A DNA stretch of 41,951 nucleotides, from assembly GCA_945903545.1 (NCBI GenBank), contig CAMDOO010000022.1, positions 1 through 41,951 on the forward strand, given 5' to 3'. This stretch comes from Opitutus sp. GAS368 (GTDB taxonomy: Bacteria; Verrucomicrobiota; Verrucomicrobiia; Opitutales; Opitutaceae). Shown piece after piece: positions 23,762 through 24,119 of this stretch (its first letter is position 1; the number at the start of each line of letters is the position of its first letter). A model generated the notes under the pieces. The model saw only the letters and a list, made by a program, of their open reading frames with translations. It did no database searches and had not been told where the DNA came from. The position numbers were made by a program, and so were the translations under genes.

Positions 23762-23802
23762 GGGATGGGTGCGGTTGGAGGTTGAACGCACCAGGCCCAG
23801 GC

Positions 23803-23837
23803 AAACAAAAAGCCGACCCAAGGCATCAGGTCGGCTT
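23803..23837 (-). terminator. intrinsic terminator, minus strand
   Basis: Read on the minus strand, AAGCCGACC pairs with GGTCGGCTT (9 bp, 10-base loop) and TTTTTGTTTG follows. It lies between the structured element at 23842-23948 and the 76-residue gene, so a transcript coming from the right would end before that gene or depend on read-through. Confidence 0.75.
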
Positions 23838-23841
23838 CGTC

Positions 23842-23948
23842 TGCGGGAGCGGATAGGTTCGCAACCCCGTGGTCGCGCACATCCGAGTCCCGCAGGTGCG
23901 GGACCCGATCCACCGTGGCCGCTCCCGGCCCGGTTGGCAGAACCGGGC
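23842..23948. ncRNA. structured non-coding element, possible small RNA or leader
   Basis: Nested complementarity is dense. GGGAGCGG (23845-23852) pairs with CCGCTCCC (23919-23926), 82 bases end to end. Inside, TGCGGGA (23842-23848) can pair with TCCCGCA (23888-23894), while GTCCCGC/GCGGGAC (23887-23904) forms an exclusive alternative hairpin. GGTT/AACC forms another. Next to it GCCCGGTT/AACCGGGC (23928-23948) is followed by TTTT on the plus strand; the minus strand has its own terminator at 23803-23837. It is tRNA-sized but I find no T-loop or anticodon arm. Strand and identity are unsettled; the minus strand is slightly favoured because of the strong terminator. Confidence 0.4.
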
Positions 23949-24025
23949 TTTTAGGCCGATTCGTTCCTGATGCGGGGCAGACGTTGGCGGGTCGGGTACC
24001 GCGGCGCCAGCCGAAATTGTGTCAT

Positions 24026-24119
24026 AAGGCCGGCACTGCGCGCCGGCCTTTCGCCGAACCAAAACAACGAGGCTTGGGCTCTGTGCGCTCTGTGTCTCTG
24101 GGGCAAAAATTCCGCGCAT
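24026..24119. repeat. 9-bp hairpin followed by a dispersed repeat
   Basis: AAGGCCGGC (24026-24034) and GCCGGCCTT (24042-24050) form a perfect hairpin with a 7-base loop. From 24061 the sequence is an inverted copy of the repeat at 18303-18430, identical over the first 22 bases and similar through CTCTGTG...CTCTG. The remainder to pabB carries a CCGCGG-centred ATCCGTTAAATCCGCGG stretch and no gene. Confidence 0.7.

Follow-up and report, generated by a model that had tools for sequence, protein, structure and literature searches.

By sequence comparison, the hairpins at positions 23803–24050 of the window (the whole stretch analysed, 41,951 nucleotides of Opitutus sp. GAS368, contig CAMDOO010000022.1) belong to one minus-strand RNA (23974–23803) that falls in the SAM-I/IV riboswitch class (RF01725). 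The best explanation, to which we assign a probability of about 0.88, is a riboswitch predicted to bind S-adenosylmethionine (SAM) and thereby to switch off a gene for a 76-aa protein. The aptamer class is already known. Its homology, covariation, conserved pocket-equivalent residues and gene association at this locus were demonstrated, as detailed below. The parts of the locus, all on the minus strand, were as follows.

24005–24012 (approximate), minus: promoter-like box CTGG..., some 37 nt 5′ of P1
23844–23974, minus: SAM-I/IV-class aptamer with P1–P5 and pseudoknot; RF01725, 33.3 bits, E 0.0023; model R1, 100.1 bits, E 1.6e-24, this copy being itself one of R1's 32 model sequences
23966–23974, minus: P1 5′ strand CGCATCAGG, 100% paired in the homologue alignment and nearly invariant
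23936–23962, minus: P2 hairpin, 8 pairs, 4 with two-sided changes
23919–23927, minus: P3 terminal loop, which is the pseudoknot 5′ strand CGGGAGCGG; 9 perfect pairs with 23852–23844
23884–23907, minus: P4 hairpin, from the stem search and homologue alignment
about 23883–23878, minus: P1 3′ partner GATGTG
23860–23877, minus: P5 hairpin, 7 pairs, 6 with two-sided changes
23844–23852, minus: pseudoknot 3′ strand CCGCTCCCG
23803–23838, minus: intrinsic terminator with U-tract, 13 pairs, TTTTTGTTT, −18.7 kcal/mol
23823–23830, minus: first P1-competing strand CCTGATGC, inside the terminator; exact complement of GCATCAGG
23768–23795, minus: second P1-competing strand CCTGGTGCG (23795–23787), with hairpin GGTGCG/CGCACC ahead of the start codon
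23531–23761, minus: 76-aa ORF, weakly related to DUF6538 and arm DNA-binding domains

Hairpins in the 23803–24050 stretch

The original prediction had described dense perfect stems in this stretch, and all of them were found, at a level above chance as judged by shuffling. The folding energy of the minus strand was −140.2 kcal/mol, compared with −113.0 on average for shuffled sequences (z = −5.4, 0/200 shuffles), while the plus strand gave z = −3.2 (1/200 shuffles as stable). The hairpins are thus more stable than chance, and more so on the minus strand than on the plus. A tRNA scan found no tRNA. The stems were located as follows.

23810–23818/23829–23837: perfect stem, 9 bp
23844–23852/23919–23927: perfect stem, 9 bp, the predicted outer pairing
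23841–23848/23888–23895 and 23884–23894/23897–23907: two stems with the common strand TCCCGC
24026–24034/24042–24050: perfect stem, 9 bp

The stems do not all belong to one structure. Both stems sharing TCCCGC exist, but the functional switch proposed between them does not hold: one of them is P4, while the second is apparently fortuitous. Similarly, the outer pairing GGGAGCGG/CCGCTCCC is real over its 9 bp, but it is the SAM-I/IV pseudoknot and not a nested stem. Terminator stems had been suggested on both strands; the only one scored by the terminator scan of this stretch lies on the minus strand, at 23838–23803, and its plus-strand counterpart did not score. The latter stem, GGCCCGGTT/AACCGGGC, was rejected as a part of the RNA, since its core CCCGGTT was in place in 1 of 79 copies, namely this one. 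The 9-bp hairpin AAGGCCGGC/GCCGGCCTT at 24026–24050 lies between pabB and the promoter-like box, upstream of the box and outside the riboswitch.

Assignment to the SAM-I/IV class

Competing stems had originally been read as a riboswitch or attenuator, or possibly a small RNA, to be checked by a covariance-model search of RNA families. The Rfam match, covariation and our own model place the RNA among minus-strand riboswitches of the SAM-I/IV class. A search at the Rfam gathering cut-off reported nothing, while a permissive search gave RF01725 at 23978–23844 of the minus strand, with a sub-cut-off 33.3 bits. The covariance model aligned over its full length, positions 1–99 of 99, with P1, P2, P3 and P4/P5. 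The RF01725 gathering score of 41.1 bits, which is a database threshold rather than a structural property of the class, was reached neither by this copy nor by most of the family, so a default Rfam scan misses this copy. Homologous Opitutaceae loci mostly scored 35–41 bits, and the range across Opitutaceae and other families of the phylum was mostly 33–42 bits, with some over the cut-off. These included a locus of another family with the aptamer before the small ORF (L245, 42.1 bits) and a leader of metK (L198, 45 bits). The cut-off therefore misses most SAM-I/IV riboswitches of the clade, which affects annotation of SAM regulation there. Weak matches to anti-hemB and STnc450 were sub-cut-off and chance-like, and were rejected as identities.

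SAM-IV (RF00634) has a pseudoknot in which the P3 loop pairs with the 3′ end, as does the present RNA, but RF01725 was the best of the clan here and P2 is a continuous 8 bp with no internal loop. The SAM-I riboswitch (RF00162) shares the pocket residues, but RF01725 scored better in the window, and RF00162 was found in 0 of 100 Opitutaceae genomes, the source genome included. The agreement with RF01725 ('SAM-I-IV-variant', PMC2864571; structure 4L81) extends to the P1–P5 layout, the pseudoknot pairing of the P3 loop with the 3′ end, and the core residues AUCA.GA, CAACC, GGUG and GAUG. It also includes the P2 without internal loop, a mark of the SAM-I/IV variant, whereas SAM-I and SAM-IV have such a loop (PMC2864571). 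The present RNA differs in its core (CAUCAGGA, not CAUCAAGAG), its sub-cut-off Rfam score, the duplication of its P1-competing strand in terminator and start-site hairpin, and its predicted control of a small undescribed protein.

Covariation, pseudoknot and putative binding pocket

Covariation among homologues, which the original prediction had named as a check, was present. In an alignment of 32 homologous aptamers, 95.5% of pairs were standard and 15 of 34 pairs had changed on both sides. The covariation score was 0.303, compared with 0.158 for shuffled alignments (0/500) and at most 0.105 for slid controls. It is P2, the inner P3 pairs, P4 and P5 that supply this support; P1 and most of P3 hardly vary, and the near-invariance of P1 means that covariation is no test of that stem. 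The pseudoknot strands were CGGGAGCG/CGCTCCCG in 60 relatives and AGGAGT/ACTCCT in 15, with CGGGAT/ATCCCG, GAGAGA/TCTCTC and further complementary pairs in others, including distant loci. In the 16-copy comparison set, pseudoknot pairing averaged 5.8 for a copy's own strands against 4.6 for crossed strands.

The core residues AUCA.GA, CAACC, GGUG and GAUG were invariant in 32/32 aptamers. They correspond to the SAM-contacting positions A3, G8, A25, A26, G48 and U69 of 4L81, a correspondence set by motif, as automatic alignment misplaced the middle of 4L81. The 4L81 sequence and constraint pairs were taken from PMC5393176. The unconstrained minimum free energy (MFE) structure of the leader lacked the aptamer fold, and the canonical fold with forced P1 lay 2.3 kcal/mol above it. 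Forcing P1 gave the canonical aptamer, the terminator and the start-site hairpin together.

Promoter-like box, terminator and proposed switch

A CT[G/C]G box occurred 36–38 nt before P1 in 79/79 copies, this one included, compared with 3% in shuffles. This suggests that minus-strand transcription probably starts close to P1. A sigma-70 promoter scan found none. Downstream of the aptamer, a U-tract terminator was likewise present in all 79 copies, and in 74 of them its 5′ part contained CTGATGC, which complements the P1 strand GCATCAG. The likely switch is pairing of the P1 5′ strand GCATCAGG (23973–23966) with the terminator strand CCTGATGC (23830–23823).

A second P1-complementary strand, CTG(A/G/C)(T/A)GCG, was found 3′ of the terminator in 70/79 copies, facing CGCATCATG or a similar sequence at the start codon. 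In many relatives this second copy is CCTGCTGCG, with one mismatch to P1. Where P1 reads CATCAAG (L025 and L037), the competing strand is CTTGATGC, a compensating change. The arms of the start-site hairpin differ in distant relatives yet stay complementary, by inspection. Duplex energies for the present copy were −14.0 kcal/mol for P1 with the terminator strand and −15.0 kcal/mol for P1 with the second copy, against −18.7 kcal/mol for the terminator.

From these features we infer the on/off direction, the antitermination and a translational layer. When SAM is scarce, the free P1 5′ strand GCAUCAGG would pair with CCUGAUGC in the terminator, allowing read-through, and might engage the second copy CCUGGUGCG as well, opening the start-site hairpin. 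When SAM is plentiful, P1 would be stabilised, the terminator would form and the 76-aa gene would be off; in any leaky transcripts the start-site hairpin could close. The duplicated P1-competing strand thus offers a testable two-layer control, by termination and by start-site masking.

Ligand and alternative explanations

SAM is most likely the ligand, given the genomic company of related RNAs. At four loci (L192, L193, L196 and L198) a relative of the RNA immediately precedes metK, which encodes SAM synthetase, at three others (L200, L201 and L202) the small ORF is followed by metK, and no SAM-I riboswitch was found in the 100 family genomes. The metK genes were recognised from the translated sequence, FTSE.VSEGHPDKVAD. 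It is improbable that this is a SAM-I/IV-fold variant with a changed ligand, such as SAH or another SAM-cycle compound. Such a change would fit the family-wide depression of Rfam scores, a controlled gene that is not a methionine gene, and the G at position 7 (4L81 numbering) in 32/32 aptamers, a position that is C in 4L81 and A in SAM-I. However, that position already differs between SAM-I and SAM-binding 4L81, the pocket-equivalent positions are kept, and L192 and L193, with the same CAUCAGGAA core, sit before metK.

It is very unlikely that the inverted repeats are DNA operators for autoregulation by the small protein rather than RNA structures. In relatives the start codon is flanked by a DNA dyad, TGATGCGCGA ... 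TCACGCATCA, and the protein weakly resembles arm DNA-binding domains, but the spacing of the arms varies widely (about 11 to 27 nt, by inspection). Compensatory changes in P2–P5 and the pseudoknot also speak for RNA, as does the presence of the same RNA in front of metK and of an AAA ATPase gene where the small protein is missing. The least likely reading of all is that of a simple attenuator or a small RNA standing alone. The promoter-like box and terminator would bound a transcript of about 170 nt, and terminated transcripts would build up as short RNA; against this, a coding ORF follows in all 79 copies compared, and the layout matches a known aptamer class.

The upstream regions of Opitutaceae metK genes were considered as carriers of a SAM-I/IV aptamer and rejected, as a different conserved element is found there. 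This element, of about 40 nt and roughly [GT][CT]ATCAnGnAATCnnnATACGTTGATAATCTnCTTGC, precedes metK at L224–L235 (L235 being the source genome) and had no Rfam match in the six loci scanned out of this set. A promoter, an operator or a small RNA element would each be possible identities for it.

Distribution and gene association

The SAM-I/IV-class riboswitch and the small protein are kept together across Opitutaceae and parts of the rest of the phylum, as judged from sequence searches. A DNA search gave matches in 24 of 95 related genomes, including the source genome. Model R1, built from the 32 aligned homologous aptamers, was found in 129/252 Opitutaceae genomes (once in the source genome) and in some other families of the phylum. 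In a phylum sample of 337 genomes, the small protein occurred in 77 and the R1 RNA in 30. Among 80 loci found by protein alone, 79 had the aptamer upstream, at a typical distance of about 88 nt from the ORF; the remaining locus had only 133 nt of upstream sequence, too little to tell. No conserved same-strand neighbour was recognised downstream of the small ORF in Opitutaceae. In some genera the small-protein homologues had no detectable aptamer, for example at L237–L241 (genera g88 and g97 of family f29).

The 76-aa protein

Among 16 homologues of the protein, 23 residues were invariant. All 16 small proteins matched DUF6538 (PF20172) weakly, with a best value of 3.5e-5, and 3 matched Arm-DNA-bind_3 (PF13356). 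The DUF6538 score of the present protein was 18.8 bits, short of the Pfam gathering score of 27 bits, and the other members with scores shown also fall below the Pfam cut-off. The small proteins further differ from these families in being stand-alone, at about 75–85 aa, without a catalytic integrase domain. There was no match in NCBIfam or PHROGs, sequence comparison with the PDB gave chance-like matches only, and an AlphaFold model of moderate confidence (pLDDT 68) had no credible fold match. The regulated gene family appears to be undescribed in the libraries searched, and its association with the riboswitch was not found in the literature searched, which mostly excluded subscription journals.

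Riboswitches usually govern genes connected with their own ligand. The company of the riboswitch, across the family and beyond, is the first functional lead for this unnamed 75–85-aa protein, which is probably DNA-binding and made when SAM is low. It is possible, if doubtful, that the two form a two-step circuit in Verrucomicrobiota, in which the riboswitch would set the level of new small stand-alone arm-type DNA-binding proteins that pass the SAM signal on to further genes, perhaps those of methionine or methylation.

Other genes were also seen beside related RNAs. At L028 and L029, a protein of about 336–378 aa follows a shorter SAM-I/IV-like RNA that scores over the Rfam cut-off; the 336-aa protein of this pair had no NCBIfam match. 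At L189 the aptamer is followed by an ORF of about 100–140 aa and a MoaD/ThiS-like ORF (by eye), genes that may belong to sulfur metabolism. At L197, L202 and L185, a MoxR-like AAA ATPase ORF (by eye) is placed either directly under the aptamer or further down, after the small ORF or metK. Finally, L097 (JADZEK010000080.1), whose copy shares 71% identity with the query protein, is filed under an Anaerolineales MAG and is probably a misbinned Opitutaceae contig.
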